NCBI RefSeq assembly: GCF_000092405.1
Contig: NC_014220.1
Span: forward strand, 744,001 to 808,000
Length of the DNA: 64,000 nt
Reading direction: 5' to 3'
Origin: Syntrophothermus lipocalidus DSM 12680
GTDB lineage: Bacteria > Bacillota > Syntrophomonadia > Syntrophomonadales > Syntrophothermaceae
Of the stretch, positions 1,196 through 60,267 are shown in pieces (positions within the stretch are counted from its first letter, which is position 1; every line of letters starts with the position of its first letter). A program made the position numbers and the translations under genes. The notes under the pieces were generated by a model. It had not been told where the DNA came from and searched no databases. It saw only the letters and a list, made by a program, of their open reading frames with translations.

Positions 1196-1863
1196 GATGT
1201 TGGTTCTTTGAAAACTGCACAAGAGAGAATTAGCGCGTTTTAGGTCAAGCGTAGTAAGGGCGTACGGTGGATGCCTAGGCGCTAGGAGGCGAAGAAGGGC
1301 GTGGCAAGCTGCGAAAAGCCACGGGGAGCTGCAAGCGAGCGAAGATCCGTGGATACCCGAATGGGGGAACCCGGTACCTGGGAACAGGTATCATCCCTAC
1401 CTGAACACATAGGGTAGGAGAGGCGAGACCCGGCGAACTGAAACATCTTAGTAGCCGGAGGAGAAGAAAGCAAGAGCGATTCCCTTAGTAGCGGCGAGCG
1501 AAAGGGGAAGAGCCTAAACCGTGCAGGTGTTAAAGGCTGCAGTCGTTGCCTGTACGGGGTAGAGGGGATGTTCGAGGTAGAGCTGCAGATTTACCGGAGC
1601 CGAAGGCTGTTTAGGAGAACGAGGCTGGAAAGCCTGACCACAGAGGGTGAAAGTCCCGTATTCGGAAAGCAGTTGTAGGTTCTAGAGCATACCCCGAGTA
1701 CCGCTGGACACGTGGTATCCGGTGGGAATCAGGGAGGACCACCTCCTAAGGCTAAATACTACCTAGCGACCGATAGCGCATAGTACCGTGAGGGAAAGGT
1801 GAAAAGCACCCCGGGAGGGGAGTGAAATAGAACCTGAAACCGTATGCCTACAAGCAGTCAGAG

Positions 1864-1967
1864 TCTGGCACTCAACTCAGTGCTCATTTGCAGATTAAGA
1901 GGGAGTTATGGACCCGGGAGGGTAAGTAAGGGATAAGAGTGGAGTGGGCAGCGAGTTGAGTGCCGGA
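1864..1967 (+). mobile_element. CCGGCACTCA-type hairpin insertion in 23S helix 25
   Basis: The 104-nt insertion has left end TCTGGCACTCAACTC (1864-1878) and right end GAGTTGAGTGCCGGA (1953-1967), which match in 14 of 15 positions, the exception being a G-U pair. It sits where E. coli has the helix 25 hairpin (near 545), between AAGCAGTCAGAG and TGATGGCGTACTTTTTGTA. No ORF is seen in its interior. It belongs to the family described at 261-357. Confidence 0.88.
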
Positions 1968-2582
1968 TGATGGCGTACTTTTTGTAGAACGGGCCGGCGA
2001 GTTACGGTAGCAAGCGAGGTTAAGCCTGATTAAGGGTGGAGCCGAAGCGAAAGCGAGTCTGAAGAGGGCGAATAGTTTGCTGCTGTAGACCCGAAACCGG
2101 GTGATCTACCCATGTCCAGGGTGAAGCGGTGGTAAAGCATCGTGGAGGCCCGAACCAGATGGCGTTGAAAAGCCAGTGGATGAGGTGTGGGTAGGGGTGA
2201 AATGCCAATCGAACCCGGAGATAGCTGGTTCTCCCCGAAATAGCTTTAGGGCTAGCCTCAGGGGTTTCTTAGCGGAGGTAGAGCACTGGTTGGGCTAGGG
2301 GCCTTACCCGGTTACCGAACCTTCCCAAACTGCGAATGCCGTTAAGTGAACCCTGGGAGTCAGACTATGGGTGATAAGGTTCATAGTCGAGAGGGAAACA
2401 GCCCAGACCGCCAGTTAAGGTCCCAAATCCAGGCTAAGTGGGAAAGGAAGTGGGGTTGCGAAGACAGCCAGGATGTTGGCTTAGAAGCAGCCATCATTCA
2501 AAGAGTGCGTAATAGCTCACTGGTCAAGTGACCCTGCGCCGAAAATGTAACGGGGCTCAAGTCTGGAACCGAAGCTGCGGAT

Positions 2583-3051
2583 ATGGAGGTTGGAGGCCAG
2601 AGGTAGGAAGTAGGAAGAGGGGCTAAAGAGACCTGGAGGACAGAGCATATGGCTATTAGAGGATATGAAGACCTAGAGGTATACCAACTTGGGTACCAAC
2701 TGGCAATGATGGTACATCGGAAGAGCCAGGAGATGCCAGCGAGTGAGAGATACGAACTAGGTCGACAGATTCGGAAGGCGGCGATATCAGTACCGGCCAA
2801 TATAGCGGAAGGATATGGTCGCAAGGATTCTGCAAAAGAGTTCAAGCACTTTCTTAGGAACGCTATGGGTTCAGTAAACGAGGTACAGGTTTATATAGAC
2901 ATGAATGAAGGACCTGGGATATGTAGATGGAAGGGCCCATGAGGAACTAAGGAGTGGGTATGCTCTGTTAGGGAAGAAACTATACCATTTGATAAAGAGT
3001 TGGAACAGAGATGAATGATCCGACTTCCGACTTCCGGCCTCCAACTTCCAT
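2583..3051 (+). mobile_element. Intervening sequence in 23S helix 45
   Basis: The 469-nt insertion lies between GAAGCTGCGGAT and GTGGTAGGGGAGCGTTCTTA, the helix 45 position (E. coli near 1170). Its ends form a long imperfect inverted repeat: ATGGAGGTTGGAGGCCAGAG on the left, and the inverse of the right end begins ATGGAAGTTGGAGGCCGGAA. It carries the four-helix-bundle IVS protein gene at 2649-3018, which has a frameshift. Palindromes with related arms lie at 834-939 and 458-537, suggesting one dispersed family. Confidence 0.9.
2649..3018 (+). pseudogene. Four-helix-bundle 23S rRNA IVS protein, frameshifted
   Basis: The first 86 or so codons encode a typical 23S-rRNA intervening-sequence protein (pfam05635/TIGR02436 type): YEDLEVYQLGYQLAMMVHR, then RQIRKAAISVPANIAEGYGR and FLRNAMGSVNEVQVYID. 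These are usually 115-120 residue four-helix bundles of unproven role. The open frame ends early at 2942. In the next frame, starting at 2905, the sequence reads MKDLGYVDGRAHEELRSGY, then ALLGKKLYHLIKSW, which is the expected last helix, ending at TGA 3016-3018. One extra A at about 2904 accounts for the shift. Joined, the protein would be about 122 residues. There is no obvious slippery site, so this is either a broken gene or a sequencing error. Confidence 0.85.
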
Positions 3052-3217
3052 GTGGTAGGGGAGCGTTCTTACTGGGCAGAAGCCATACCGTAAGGAATGG
3101 TGGACTGGTAAGAAGAGAGAATGCCGGCATGAGTAAGCGAGAAGGCAGGTGAGAATCCTGTCCGCCGAAAGCCTAAGGTTTCCTGGGGAAGGCTCGTCCA
3201 CCCAGGGTAAGCCGGGA

Positions 3218-3250
<33 letters not shown>

Positions 3251-3514
3251 GAATCGGTTGAGAATCCGATGCCACCTTCAGACCGATTGAGCGAAGGGGT
3301 GACGCAGGAGGGTAGGCGAAGCGCACGGATGGAAAAGTGCGTCCAAGCCCGTAGGGTGCAAGGCAGGCAAATCCGCCTTGCGGAGAGCCTGAGGGGTGAC
3401 GGGGAGCGAATATTAGTAGCGAAGTCGCTGAACCCAAACTGCCAAGAAAAGCCTCTAGCGAGGTTTGGGGTGCCCGTACCGCAAACCGACACAGGTAGGC
3501 GAGGAGAGAATCCT

Positions 3515-3546
<32 letters not shown>

Positions 3547-3745
3547 CGGACAAAATCGGCCCCGTAACTTCGGGAGAAGGGGTACCCCGATAGTGTAGCC
3601 GTAATATACTTATGGTGGCACGAGGGGGTCGCAGTGACCAGGCCCAGGCGACTGTTTACCAAAAACACAGGTCTCTGCAAAATCGAAAGATGAAGTATAG
3701 AGGCTGACGCCTGCCCGGTGCCGGAAGGTTAAGGGGAAGGGTTAT

Positions 3746-4046
3746 CCGGCACTCAATGGTCTTTACCAGGAGGAGATAAAGTGTACTACGTGTATGTATT
3801 AGTAAGCGAAGAGGGAAAGACGTATCTAGGATACACGTCAGACCTCAAGCGGCGGATACAGGAGCACAATGAAGGCAGGAACAAGTGGACACGTGGGCAC
3901 AGAAGGAGATTAGCATACTATGAAGCGTATGCGAGCGATGCGGACGCAAGGAGAAGGGAAAGGAATCTCAAGCGTTCGGGACAGGCCAGAAGATGGCTTA
4001 GGGAGCGCATACGGGAGAGCGTGAAGTAGAGACCATTGAGTGCCGG
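3746..4046 (+). mobile_element. CCGGCACTCA-type element in 23S helix 68 carrying a nuclease gene
   Basis: This 301-nt insertion has perfect 17-bp terminal inverted repeats: CCGGCACTCAATGGTCT at 3746-3762 and its complement at 4030-4046. It lies between GGTTAAGGGGAAGGGTTAT and AGAAGCTCTGAACCGAAGCC, the tip of helix 68 (E. coli 1830-1905), next to the tRNA exit site of the large subunit. Most of its length is the GIY-YIG ORF at 3781-4029. It is the only coding member of the five-copy family seen here and may be the parental form. Confidence 0.93.
3781..4029 (+). CDS. GIY-YIG nuclease-domain protein encoded inside 23S rRNA
   Basis: This is an 82-residue protein consisting of a single GIY-YIG domain of the small UPF0213/YhbQ type. 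Visible motifs are VYV (GIY position) at residues 4-6 and YLG (YIG position) at 16-18, the helix SDLKRRIQEHN with the expected arginine, and the metal-binding glutamate in ARRRERNLKRSG. The start is GTG 3781, preceded by a strong ribosome-binding site AGGAGG at 3768-3773. The stop is TAG 4027-4029, one base before the right inverted repeat. GIY-YIG enzymes cut nucleic acids and include homing endonucleases. A role in mobility or in cutting the rRNA insertion is an inference. Whether the ORF is translated from pre-rRNA or from excised RNA is unknown. Confidence 0.88.
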   Translation: MYYVYVLVSEEGKTYLGYTSDLKRRIQEHNEGRNKWTRGHRRRLAYYEAYASDADARRRERNLKRSGQARRWLRERIRESVK

Positions 4047-4055
4047 AGAAGCTCT

Positions 4056-4169
<114 letters not shown>

Positions 4170-4404
4170 GACGAGGGGCTCGGTGAAATTGTAATACCGG
4201 TGAAGATGCCGGTTACCTGCGACAGGACAGAAAGACCCCGTGGAGCTTTACTGTAGCCTGATATTGGATTTTGGCAGGTCATGTACAGGATAGGTGGGAG
4301 GCTGGGAAGCAGGGCCGCCAGGTTCTGTGGAGCCGTTGGTGGGATACCACTCTTGGCTTGCTGGAGTTCTAACCTGCCCCCGTGAGCCGGGGGAGGGACA
4401 GTGT

Positions 4405-4442
<38 letters not shown>

Positions 4443-4443
4443 G

Positions 4444-4478
<35 letters not shown>

Positions 4479-4614
4479 TGGAAATCGCGCGTAGAGTGCA
4501 AAGGCAGAAGGGAGCTTGACTGCGAGAGGGACGCTTCGAGCAGGGACGAAAGTCGGGCTTAGTGATCCGGCGGTACCGAGTGGAAGGGCCGTCGCTCAAC
4601 GGACAAAAGCTACC

Positions 4615-4646
<32 letters not shown>

Positions 4647-4647
4647 C

Positions 4648-4743
<96 letters not shown>

Positions 4744-4748
4744 TACGT

Positions 4749-4791
<43 letters not shown>

Positions 4792-4818
4792 TCGCAGGCG
4801 CAGGAGAATTGAGGGGAG

Positions 4819-4849
<31 letters not shown>

Positions 4850-4906
4850 AGACCGCTGGTGTACCAGTTGTTCCGCCAGGGGCACAGCTGGGTAGCTATG
4901 TCTGGA

Positions 4907-4941
<35 letters not shown>

Positions 4942-4963
4942 GACCCCAAGATGAGTTCTCCCA

Positions 4964-5063
4964 CCCGGCACTCAACCAGGCACTTAGCAGGAAGCGAGGA
5001 TTGTATCAGCGGATGCTGGTAGAAGAGGCAAGCGAGATGTTAGGTGTCGGGTTGAGTGCCGGG
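4964..5063 (+). mobile_element. CCGGCACTCA-type hairpin insertion in 23S helix 98
   Basis: This 100-nt insertion has perfect 14-bp inverted ends: CCCGGCACTCAACC (4964-4977) and its complement at 5050-5063. It replaces the helix 98 hairpin after GATGAGTTCTCCCA. It holds no ORF. It shares the interior string AGCAGGAAGC with the 16S copy, the only clear interior similarity among the copies. Confidence 0.9.
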
Positions 5064-5205
5064 GTAAGACCCCAGCAAGACTAGCTGGTAGATAGGCCGG
5101 GGGTGTAAGCACAGCAATGTGTTGAGCCGACCGGTACTAATAGGTCGAGGGCTTGACCTAGGCGCTTTAAAATCTCTTGTGCAGTTTTGAGAGAGCCTAG
5201 AATAA

Positions 5206-16911: not shown

Positions 16912-17072
16912 CTCTTATCGAGAGAGGTGGAGGGACGGGCCCTATGAAACCCGGCAACCGCCTTGGTTATCCGAGGTATGGTGCCAATTCCTGCAGGATG
17001 TGATTCCTGGGAGATAAGAGGAGGCAGACCAATCGCGAGTTCATATGCCTCTTCCTGGGAAGAGGCTTTTTT
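16912..17072 (+). promoter_or_regulatory. SAM-I riboswitch (S-box) with terminator
   Basis: The leader has the S-box layout: P1 strands CTCTTATC (16912-16919) and GATAAGAG (17012-17019), then AGAGGTGGAGGGAC, the core ATGAAACCCGGCAACCG, and the P3-P4 hairpins. It is followed by the terminator GCCTCTTCC/GGAAGAGGC (17047-17066) and six T. AAGAGG of the P1 3' strand can alternatively pair with CCTCTT of the terminator, giving the antiterminator. With S-adenosylmethionine bound, P1 forms and transcription stops. It controls metH and probably the sulfur-assimilation genes after it. Confidence 0.95.
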
Positions 17073-57656: not shown

Positions 57657-58277
57657 TTGATTCTGAAGTGGCTAGAAGTAGGTTCGATCGGAGCAAACTG
57701 TTACATTATTGGCTGTGAAGAGACTCGGGAGGGGGCTGTCATAGACCCAGGGGGGAATGGCCCTTCGATTGTACAGGTTATTGAAAGCCTTAAACTGAAA
57801 ATAAAATATATAATCAATACCCATGGGCATATTGATCATATTGGGGCTAACCGTCAGGTCAAAGAAGCTACCGGGGCAGAAATCCTGATTCATGAAGAAG
57901 ATGCGGGTATGCTGACTAATCCGGTTTCCAATTTTTCAATGTTTATGGGCAGAAACATAACCAGTCCTCCAGCCGATAGGTTTATAAAGGACGGTGACAT
58001 AATTAAGATCGGAAACACGATAGAACTTGAAGTCATCCACACTCCAGGACATACTCGGGGCGGCGTCTGCCTTAAAACCGGTGACATCATTTTTGCTGGA
58101 GACACGTTGTTCGCTGGCTCGATTGGCAGGACCGACTTCCCCGGGGGGTCTTTCAAGACTTTGATCGAGTCCATAAACAACAAGATAATGTGTTACGAGG
58201 ACCACGTGAAGGTTTATCCGGGGCACGGACCGGCCACGACGGTAGGATTTGAACGCAAGCACAACCCGTTTTTGTGA
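57657..58277 (+). CDS. MBL-fold metallohydrolase (glyoxalase II-like)
   Basis: This 206-residue metallo-beta-lactamase fold protein has the dinuclear metal motif NTHGHIDHIG, then HTPGHTRGGVCL, FAGDTLFAGSIGRTDFPGG and VYPGHGPATTVGFE. It belongs to the small YqgX/glyoxalase II-like group that follows dtd in many Firmicutes. The substrate is uncertain. TTG 57657 follows AGGAGGG. Confidence 0.88.
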   Translation: MILKWLEVGSIGANCYIIGCEETREGAVIDPGGNGPSIVQVIESLKLKIKYIINTHGHIDHIGANRQVKEATGAEILIHEEDAGMLTNPVSNFSMFMGRNITSPPADRFIKDGDIIKIGNTIELEVIHTPGHTRGGVCLKTGDIIFAGDTLFAGSIGRTDFPGGSFKTLIESINNKIMCYEDHVKVYPGHGPATTVGFERKHNPFL

Positions 58278-58344
58278 TATTGTTTCAAATCTTTCACGAA
58301 GTTCTTTACAAGAGGATGCTTTGCATGGTATGATTCATTCAAAG

Positions 58345-58631
58345 TAATCTAATACCGGAAAAGTGATGATGAAGGAAAGTAGCTCCACGGAATCCTACAG
58401 GGAGGAGATGCCGTGACTGGAAGCATCTCTAGGAGGAAAGGGAGTGAAGTTCCCTTCTGAACTCCCGGCTGAAACCGCCAAGCGGCAAGTAGGTCGAGGC
58501 GGAGACTTCCACCGTTAAAAGGAAGGGGATATCGGATGGCAGATCCCGTATCCTGCAAAGAGCGGACCGAGTTCAATTTGGGTGGTACCGCGGAAAGTAA
58601 GCTTTCCGTCCCATGGGCGGAAGGCTTTTTT
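58345..58631 (+). promoter_or_regulatory. T-box riboswitch upstream of aroF
   Basis: The leader has a long stem I region (AGTAGC near 58379, AGGGAGGAGATGCC and AAGCATCTCTAGGAG arms) and the T-box sequence GGGTGGTACCGCGG at 58580-58593. Its terminator GCTTTCCGTCC / GGGCGGAAGGC is followed by T6 (58611-58631). The bulge UGGU would pair with tRNA ACCA, i.e. discriminator A. A TTC (58455-58457) lies where a specifier could be, which would read Phe, but the fold is not proven. The downstream genes make phenylalanine precursors. Confidence 0.88.
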
Positions 58632-58662
58632 GATTGCAAGGGTAACCGGGGCTACATCATCC

Positions 58663-58756
58663 CGTATCCTGGCGAGCGGGCTTGATCCAGGCCAAGTAGG
58701 GTGGTACCGCGGGAGGAAAGAAAACCTCTCGTCCCTTTCGAGGACGAGAGGTTTTT
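58663..58756 (+). promoter_or_regulatory. Second, partial T-box antiterminator
   Basis: About 80 bp after the first T-box terminator, a second GGGTGGTACCGCGG (58699-58712) appears with its own terminator ACCTCTCGTCC / GGACGAGAGGT and T-run (58725-58756). The 30 bp before it (ATCCCGTATCCTG) duplicates the sequence before the first T-box. There is no room for a stem I, so it cannot read a codon by itself. It may share the upstream stem I or be a tandem gate needing two antitermination events. Confidence 0.82.
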
Positions 58757-58793
58757 ATATTTCTTACGAAAGGTTCGAAGGAGGTGATGAAAG

Positions 58794-58853
58794 ATGGAGG
58801 TTGACTTTGATTTTTGGAGTTTTGAAACCGAATGGTTTACCACTTACTTGTGA
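58794..58853 (+). CDS. Aromatic-rich leader peptide of aroF
   Basis: A 19-residue ORF MEVDFDFWSFETEWFTTYL with four Phe, two Trp and one Tyr follows GAAGGAGGTGATG (58778-58790), a near-perfect ribosome-binding site. Its TGA stop (58851-58853) is immediately followed by AAGGAGG (58853-58859), the ribosome site of aroF, and aroF starts 12 bases after the stop. A ribosome stalled in the peptide for lack of aromatic aminoacyl-tRNA, or one terminating there, would directly affect aroF initiation. It is too short for homology evidence, but composition, signals and position agree with a leader peptide. Confidence 0.8.
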   Translation: MEVDFDFWSFETEWFTTYL

Positions 58854-58865
58854 AGGAGGATTATT

Positions 58866-59708
58866 ATGGAGAGCAAGAGTCAACGCACATGCGGTGAACT
58901 CAAAGTCATGAAAAATTCTGAAACGCGTCATCCCCTAGTCCGCGTTAAAGACTGCGTTGTAGGAGGCCATGATGTGACAGTTATCGCCGGCCCCTGCGCG
59001 GTGGAGGACGAAGAAACCTTATGGGCGACTGCAGTACAGGTCAAGAAAGCGGGGGCCCATATTCTGCGGGGCGGGGCTTACAAGCCCAGAACCTCGCCTT
59101 ACAGTTTCCAGGGCTTAGGTAAAACGGGACTGAGAATCTTGGCTTCAGTGGGTCAGGCTTTGGGAATGCCGGTCGTAACCGAGGTAATGGATACAGCTGA
59201 CATAGAAGAGGTTGCCGCTTATGCCGATGTATTGCAAATCGGAGCCCGTAACATGCATAACTACGGGTTACTGAAAAGACTGGGAAAGGTTGAAAAACCG
59301 GTTATACTGAAGAGGGGTCTGTCTGCGACCATTGAAGAGTGGCTGATGGCAGCCGAGTACGTGGTATCCGGGGGCAATGACCAGGTCATACTGTGTGAAA
59401 GGGGAATAAGGACTTATGAACCCTGGACGCGGAACACGCTGGACCTCTCCGCTGTGGCCTTGGTTAAGACTCTTACCCATCTTCCTGTAATCGTTGATCC
59501 AAGCCACGCTACTGGTAAAGCCGATCTTGTCGGTCCCATGGCGAGAGCTGCGGTTGCTGCCGGTGCTGACGGTTTGATGATCGAGGTCCATATTGATCCG
59601 TCCAAGGCCTTATCTGACGGAGAGCAGTCTTTAACCCCAGGCCAGTTCGCGCAGTTGATGCAAGACATAAGAGCGTTAACCTCCATTCGGCAAAGGCGGG
59701 TGTCGTGA
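58866..59708 (+). CDS. aroF: DAHP synthase, AroF/type I-beta
   Basis: This 280-residue enzyme condenses phosphoenolpyruvate and erythrose 4-phosphate, the first step of aromatic synthesis. It has motifs [101 protein letters not shown] and GLMIEVH. It has no N-terminal ferredoxin-like regulatory domain of full length, only about 35 extra residues. ATG 58866 follows AAGGAGGATTATT. It is controlled by the T-box and the leader peptide. Confidence 0.95.
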
Positions 59709-59709
59709 A

Positions 59710-60267
59710 ATGAAACCTGTTTATGCCGTACTGGGTTCCCGCTGTACATTTACCGTGGAAGCGGCCCGCTGTTACTGGGGAGATGGTGTAGATCTGCTAG
59801 GCTTAAAGTCTATCCCAGAAGTCTTCGAGTCTGTCGTGCAAAGCGGTGTTAGTGGGGGCATGGTCCCGGTTGAAAACTCGATCGCCGGGCGAATCCCCGA
59901 AACCGAAGCTGGGCTCAGAGAGTTTCCAGTAGTCGTGGCTGGTGAGATTTGCCTCACAATACAACACTGTTTGCTTTCGACCAAACCCTTAGCCATTGAC
60001 CGGGTTAATCTGGTCTTCAGCCAGGCCCAGGTGTTTGCCCAGTGCCGGCGGTTTTTACGCGAACACCTGCCATGGGTAACGCTGGTAGCGGTTGCCAACA
60101 CCGAATTGGCAATCCAGATGGCCCGGCACGCAGGTGAAAACTCCGCGGCCGTAGGGTCGGCATTAGCAGCTGATATCTACGGTATGCACGTCATAGCCAA
60201 GGGGATTCAGGACAGTGATTCCAATGTTACCCGCTTTGTCCATATCAAGCCACGAGAGCCGCAATAG
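59710..60267 (+). CDS. pheA: Prephenate dehydratase, no ACT domain
   Basis: This 185-residue protein contains only the catalytic PDT domain: [40 protein letters not shown] and the catalytic TRF in NVTRFVHI. Ordinary PheA proteins carry a C-terminal ACT domain that senses phenylalanine, and this one ends after the PDT domain. Feedback control would then rest on the leader RNA. The entry motif [12 protein letters not shown] deviates from the usual GPxGTFS. ATG starts one base after the aroF stop, so it is coupled. Confidence 0.9.

Follow-up and report, generated by a model that had tools for sequence, protein, structure and literature searches.

A short ORF rich in aromatic codons between a phenylalanine T-box and aroF as a candidate translational leader in Syntrophothermus lipocalidus

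The aroF-pheA locus and its leader region

We analyzed 64,000 nucleotides of the genome of Syntrophothermus lipocalidus DSM 12680 (NC_014220.1, positions 744,001 to 808,000), which is a single contig of 2,405,559 bases; this whole stretch is referred to below as the window, and positions are counted from its first base. A leader region of 590 nt separates a metallo-beta-lactamase-fold gene (end at 58277) from aroF, which encodes a DAHP synthase of the DAHP_synth_1 type and is followed by pheA, the gene for prephenate dehydratase (Table 1). The leader region contains a candidate promoter, a full T-box riboswitch with its terminator, a second, partial T-box module with a terminator of its own, and a short ORF that follows both terminators.

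Table 1. Features of the aroF-pheA locus in the window.
Feature	Position	Strand	Basis or remark
Sigma-70-like candidate promoter, TTTACA-18-TATGAT, TG before the -10 element	58305..58334	+	Consensus scan, 10/12 matches
Full T-box riboswitch, stem I to antiterminator	58357..58616	+	Rfam RF00230
Terminator 1 of the T-box	58599..58632	+	Stem 58599-58627 and T run
Second, partial T-box module, stem-III-like CCCGTATCCTGGCGAGCGGG and T-box sequence GGGTGGTACCGCGGG	58656..58719	+	Repeats module 1
Terminator 2	58720..58761	+	15-bp stem and T run
Ribosome site of the leader ORF, AAGGAGGTGAT	58778..58788	+	11 nt of anti-SD complement
Leader ORF, MEVDFDFWSFETEWFTTYL and stop	58794..58853	+	In frame with aroF
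aroF ribosome site, AAGGAGG	58853..58859	+	One-base overlap with the leader stop
aroF, DAHP synthase (DAHP_synth_1)	58866..59708	+	Pfam PF00793, E 2.7e-85
pheA, prephenate dehydratase	59710..60267	+	Pfam PF00800, E 3.7e-49

The T-box scores 101.7 bits with the covariance model, against a cut-off of 93, and GUGAAGUUCCC contains UUC (Phe) as its specifier; the motif GAAGTTC that holds the specifier is kept in the relatives inspected. Both the specifier and the gene content of the operon therefore indicate phenylalanine. The T-box sequence GGGTGGTACCGCGG occurs twice in the leader region, the second time in the partial module, which is without a stem I and has terminator 2 as its own terminator (fold z = -5.2 for this region). 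In this respect the locus resembles the partially tandem T-boxes, whose mode of action is stated as unknown in a passage of PMC7583486. Such a second module is common to most aroF loci of the order, and nothing that was tested sets the one in the window apart. The genome has two further DAHP synthase loci, neither with a T-box. No similar leader ORF was found at the other T-boxes of the genome in the loci that were read downstream; the T-box pattern did not anchor two loci.

Elsewhere in the window, a SAM riboswitch was found at 16912-17020 (95.6 bits), and the 23S rRNA gene (1243-5160) is about 3.9 kb long, which is about 1 kb beyond the bacterial model, with insertions seen in the alignment.

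An aromatic-rich ORF with a strong ribosome site

The short ORF, which has its own SD sequence, follows the last T-box terminator and precedes the aroF SD sequence. It comprises 19 codons followed by a TGA at 58851-58853, and seven of the 19 (37%) encode aromatic residues (F5, F7, W8, F10, W14, F15 and Y18), that is, four Phe, two Trp and one Tyr; all four Phe codons, which specify the amino acid sensed by the upstream T-box, are UUU. The SD sequence is complementary to the 3'-end of 16S rRNA over 11 nt at a spacing of 5 nt and ranks highest among the 56 predicted genes of the window, the others having at most 8 nt. The final A of the leader TGA is at the same time the first base of the aroF SD sequence, and the aroF ATG lies 6 nt beyond the latter, so that the two start codons are 72 nt, or 24 codons, apart and in the same frame. 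The composition of the ORF, its near-perfect ribosome site, the contact of its stop with the aroF ribosome site and its location between the T-box and aroF had all been claimed in a preliminary description of this DNA and were borne out here. The second T-box module, which lies between the Rfam match and the ORF, had not been mentioned there. Judged by these sequence features, the leader ORF is very likely translated.

The chance expectation was estimated from the 64-kb window only. Under local coding usage, the probability of at least seven aromatic codons in 18 is 1.4e-4, while the same count is reached in 0.8% of shuffled versions of the ORF that have the same bases and no stop, and T-rich composition therefore accounts for part of the enrichment. 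Among 76 window ORFs of 10-60 codons with an SD score of at least 6, the leader is the outlier in aromatic content, the next having 21%. The contact between stop and SD sequence is less distinctive, since 13 of 46 same-strand gaps in the window fall within -20 to 20 nt; taken alone, it is a normal feature of operons and points to plain coupling.

Conservation in the family and in the order

Four genomes of the family were compared. The locus was found in three of them including the window, two of these three sequences being draft assemblies; no such locus was found in the fourth genome (G001). All three loci retain the leader ribosome site, the start and the (V)DF opening, two are rich in aromatic codons, and only in the window does the leader stop lie at the aroF SD sequence.

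In the closest relative (G003, locus L121), the leader SD sequence is AGGAGGTGG, read as AGGAGGTGGTGGCT-ATG, and the leader MTSDFDFIPPGFYGANGYL reaches the aroF SD sequence after 19 codons without a gap, five of them aromatic. F5, F7, Y18 and L19 are identical to those in the window, DFDF and YL being kept, while between codon 8 and codon 17 the aromatic residues do not align. G003 has CGA where the window has TGA, which yields an ORF of 41 codons running past the SD sequence and start of aroF. A TAA was also seen in the AroF frame of G003 (L121, approximately 1044-1060), between the SD-led ATG and the conserved core; because it precedes the core, either the draft sequence may be wrong or AroF starts later.

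The second relative (G002, locus L120) has the leader SD sequence AAAGGGGGTGAT, read as AAAGGGGGTGATGACA-GTG-GGT-GAA-GAG-GTT-GAC-TTT, and keeps the SD sequence, the start and EVDF in the same frame despite a 5-nt change in the distance from SD to EVDF. After EVDF the similarity is lost, there are few aromatic codons near the start, and the ORF overlaps aroF over a long stretch. Neither relative has its leader ORF in the AroF frame.

These alignments indicate that the family conserves the translation start of the leader, its aromatic richness in part and the contact between stop and SD sequence not at all, and that even the few close relatives do not retain most key features. The aromatic-rich peptide, for which the preliminary description proposed a search in relatives, recurs in G003, with CGA in place of the stop, and is reduced in G002 to the SD sequence, the start and EVDF; the lack of conservation that was named there as a refutation is half borne out.

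Outside the family, no such leader ORF was found in the 28 loci checked (family f3), in which AroF starts directly after the last terminator, with a longer spacer in two. In genus g13, the space from the T-box to aroF holds another short ORF, MSA[QE]L..PGMF, at three loci (L020, L139 and L141). It is not rich in aromatic codons, its start region is conserved and its end variable, and in one genome its stop lies 44 nt before the aroF ATG.

Possible control of aroF translation

Both terminators lie upstream of the leader ORF, no terminator was found 3' of it, and the ORF region has no significant fold (z 0.28); any effect of the leader must therefore be translational. Transcription attenuation by the leader was accordingly rejected. 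A hairpin sequestering the aroF SD sequence was also rejected, given the insignificant fold and a modelled SD accessibility that is barely altered by a ribosome at a Phe codon (0.40-0.44, against 0.44 in the free leader).

Our favored reading, which we put forward tentatively and rate as somewhat short of probable, is that the leader is a translated cistron through which aroF(-pheA) comes under translational control, in addition to the control of transcription by the Phe T-box upstream. In its most likely form, according to footprint geometry, the terminating ribosome would occlude the aroF SD sequence and stalling at Phe or Trp codons would relieve this occlusion. Uncharged tRNA-Phe would bind the T-box and let transcription pass both terminators, a step that the anatomy of the region supports well. 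Ribosomes would then load at the very strong leader site, whose start the family conserves, and decode the 19 codons. Where both tRNA-Phe and tRNA-Trp are charged, they would complete the leader and terminate at the UGA, where they would cover the aroF SD sequence and limit aroF initiation; under shortage of Phe (or Trp) they would be held at codons 5-14, so that the SD sequence would stay accessible and aroF translation would rise. Such a switch would require no change of RNA structure.

With an assumed footprint of 29 nt, a ribosome at codons 5-14 leaves the aroF SD sequence and initiation region free, one at codon 15 just touches the initiation region, and one at Tyr18 or at the stop covers the SD sequence. 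In the window the leader stop is thus positioned for a terminating ribosome to cover the aroF SD sequence, an arrangement that is not kept in G003 and G002. Because a ribosome stalled at Tyr18 would cover the aroF SD sequence, shortage of tyrosine should not derepress aroF. This prediction, the Phe specificity of the T-box and the aroF-pheA content of the operon speak against the sensitivity to all three aromatic amino acids that had been suggested for the leader. What stands of the coupling or stalling control proposed in the preliminary description is a very likely translated ORF placed to act only on translation; sensing of three amino acids is not supported, conservation is so only in part, and the claim of novelty does not hold.

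The aromatic residues of the leader match the aroF-pheA pathway, which is in favor of a control function. Against it are the restriction of the stop at the SD sequence to the window, the unaligned aromatic residues in the middle of the leader, the small number of loci (three) and the 28 other loci of the order that manage without such an ORF. Plain coupling accounts for the conservation pattern about as well as control does, and for the aromatic content less well. Ribosomes ending at the UGA would restart at the adjacent aroF SD sequence, 12 nt before the AUG; the leader would be a strong landing site whose encoded residues are irrelevant, and Phe would be sensed by the T-box alone. A stop adjoining an SD sequence is the usual geometry of coupling, tight gaps being frequent here, and three genera keep the SD sequence and start but neither the coding middle nor the stop, as if only loading matters; moreover, other clades carry non-aromatic ORFs at the same place, such as that of g13. 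However, a loader is not obviously needed, as the aroF SD sequence is itself good (7 nt), and coupling leaves the seven pathway-matching aromatic codons unexplained. We regard it as a serious possibility, if a rather doubtful one.

It is unlikely that the ORF is incidental, that is, an SD-like stretch and T-rich codons brought together by chance, or what is left of an earlier leader in decay, without effect on aroF. The unconserved coding middle and stop, the absence of the ORF from most of the order and the fraction of shuffles that reach the aromatic count through T-rich composition alone would fit such an origin, but an 11-nt SD sequence 5 nt before an ATG that is kept in three genera, along with the EVDF frame, can hardly be put down to chance. 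The match of the leader and aroF frames in the window would also allow readthrough of the UGA to give AroF with a 24-residue N-terminal extension. We rejected this explanation, which is highly improbable: the leader ORF is out of the AroF frame in G003 and G002, a strong SD sequence and an ATG directly follow the UGA, and an in-frame arrangement is expected by chance in one case of three.

An out-of-frame aroF start in a sister family

In the sister family f2, represented by five genomes of two genera (G004, G010, G012, G006 and G008; loci L133-L137), the sole well-spaced start after the same Phe T-box is an ATG (four genomes) or a TTG (one genome), followed by GG[GA] TTT. This start is out of frame with AroF, with an identical offset in each of the five. 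In the AroF frame the sequence is (x)G[VI]L[LT]A[ED], which resembles the AroF N-termini of f3 (M-x-x-LLAK); sequence differences in this stretch fall mainly at third positions of AroF codons, and in G004, G006 and G012 the AroF frame is cut off by a TAA close upstream. Several routes into the AroF frame may be considered from these sequences: a ribosome held at UUU for want of Phe-tRNA could slip by -1 at GGG and so restore the frame, AroF could start at a UUG or AUU, or ribosomes could re-initiate at a GTG overlapping the TGA of the short ORF (GTGA, seen in four g7 genomes). The out-of-frame start may be of more interest than the leader ORF itself.

A broader reading, which we consider a long shot, is that the aroF-pheA Phe T-box of this order repeatedly precedes a second, translation-level Phe sensor in lineage-specific forms. 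These would be the aromatic leader ORF in the window's family, the out-of-frame start (ATG/TTG GGG UUU) in f2, at which a ribosome held up for lack of Phe-tRNA would move one base back and so enter the AroF frame, and the short ORF in g13.

Comparison with known systems

The leader peptides of the enterobacterial pheA, pheST and trp operons act in ribosome-mediated transcription attenuation. Like them, the leader in the window is rich in amino acids of its operon; however, because no terminator or antiterminator overlaps or follows the ORF, the defining step of trpL/pheL-type attenuation is absent here.

A closer parallel is the leader of rtpA, the gene for anti-TRAP. There, codons for the sensed amino acid are found in a short ORF located 3' of the T-box terminator and 5' of the SD sequence of the gene, and translation is controlled through tRNA-dependent stalling of the ribosome. 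This combination of a T-box and Trp leader-peptide control was reportedly described by Chen and Yanofsky (Science 301:211, 2003; Mol Cell 13:703, 2004; both cited in PMC11255114 and PMC4027176). Both loci have a T-box and, ahead of the SD sequence of the gene, a short leader ORF that encodes the sensed amino acid, and the occlusion proposed for the window would follow the anti-TRAP logic with Phe replacing Trp. The differences are that the window has scattered Phe codons, plus Trp and Tyr, where rtpA has Trp codons, that the controlled gene encodes a biosynthetic enzyme and not a regulator, that the T-box is partly duplicated, and that the case in the window is known from its sequence alone. 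Passages in PMC11255114 and PMC4027176 describe for Bacillus subtilis rtpA both T-box control of transcription and leader-peptide control of translation, and dual control of this type, which had been thought undescribed, therefore has a precedent.

At aroF itself, a Phe-containing uORF of Acholeplasma (uORFC-13-1) is proposed, in a passage of PMC8632094, to sense the supply of phenylalanine. As in the window, a short ORF with one or more Phe codons precedes aroF; in contrast, the Acholeplasma motif precedes a terminator (transcription attenuation) and a T-box is not described for it in that passage, whereas the ORF in the window comes after the terminators and has none downstream. Our literature search for a T-box together with a Phe leader at aroF returned nothing beyond uORFC-13-1.

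By analogy, the arrangement in the window would be a Phe-for-Trp variant of that of rtpA, in which the operon is biosynthetic and the T-box duplicated in part. The leader is a short and easily mutated construct for distinguishing occlusion of the SD sequence from coupling. If functional, it would represent a second, independently evolved combination of a T-box with leader-peptide control of translation, here for phenylalanine and acting directly on a biosynthetic enzyme, which would suggest that the rtpA arrangement is a general solution and not an oddity of Bacillus.
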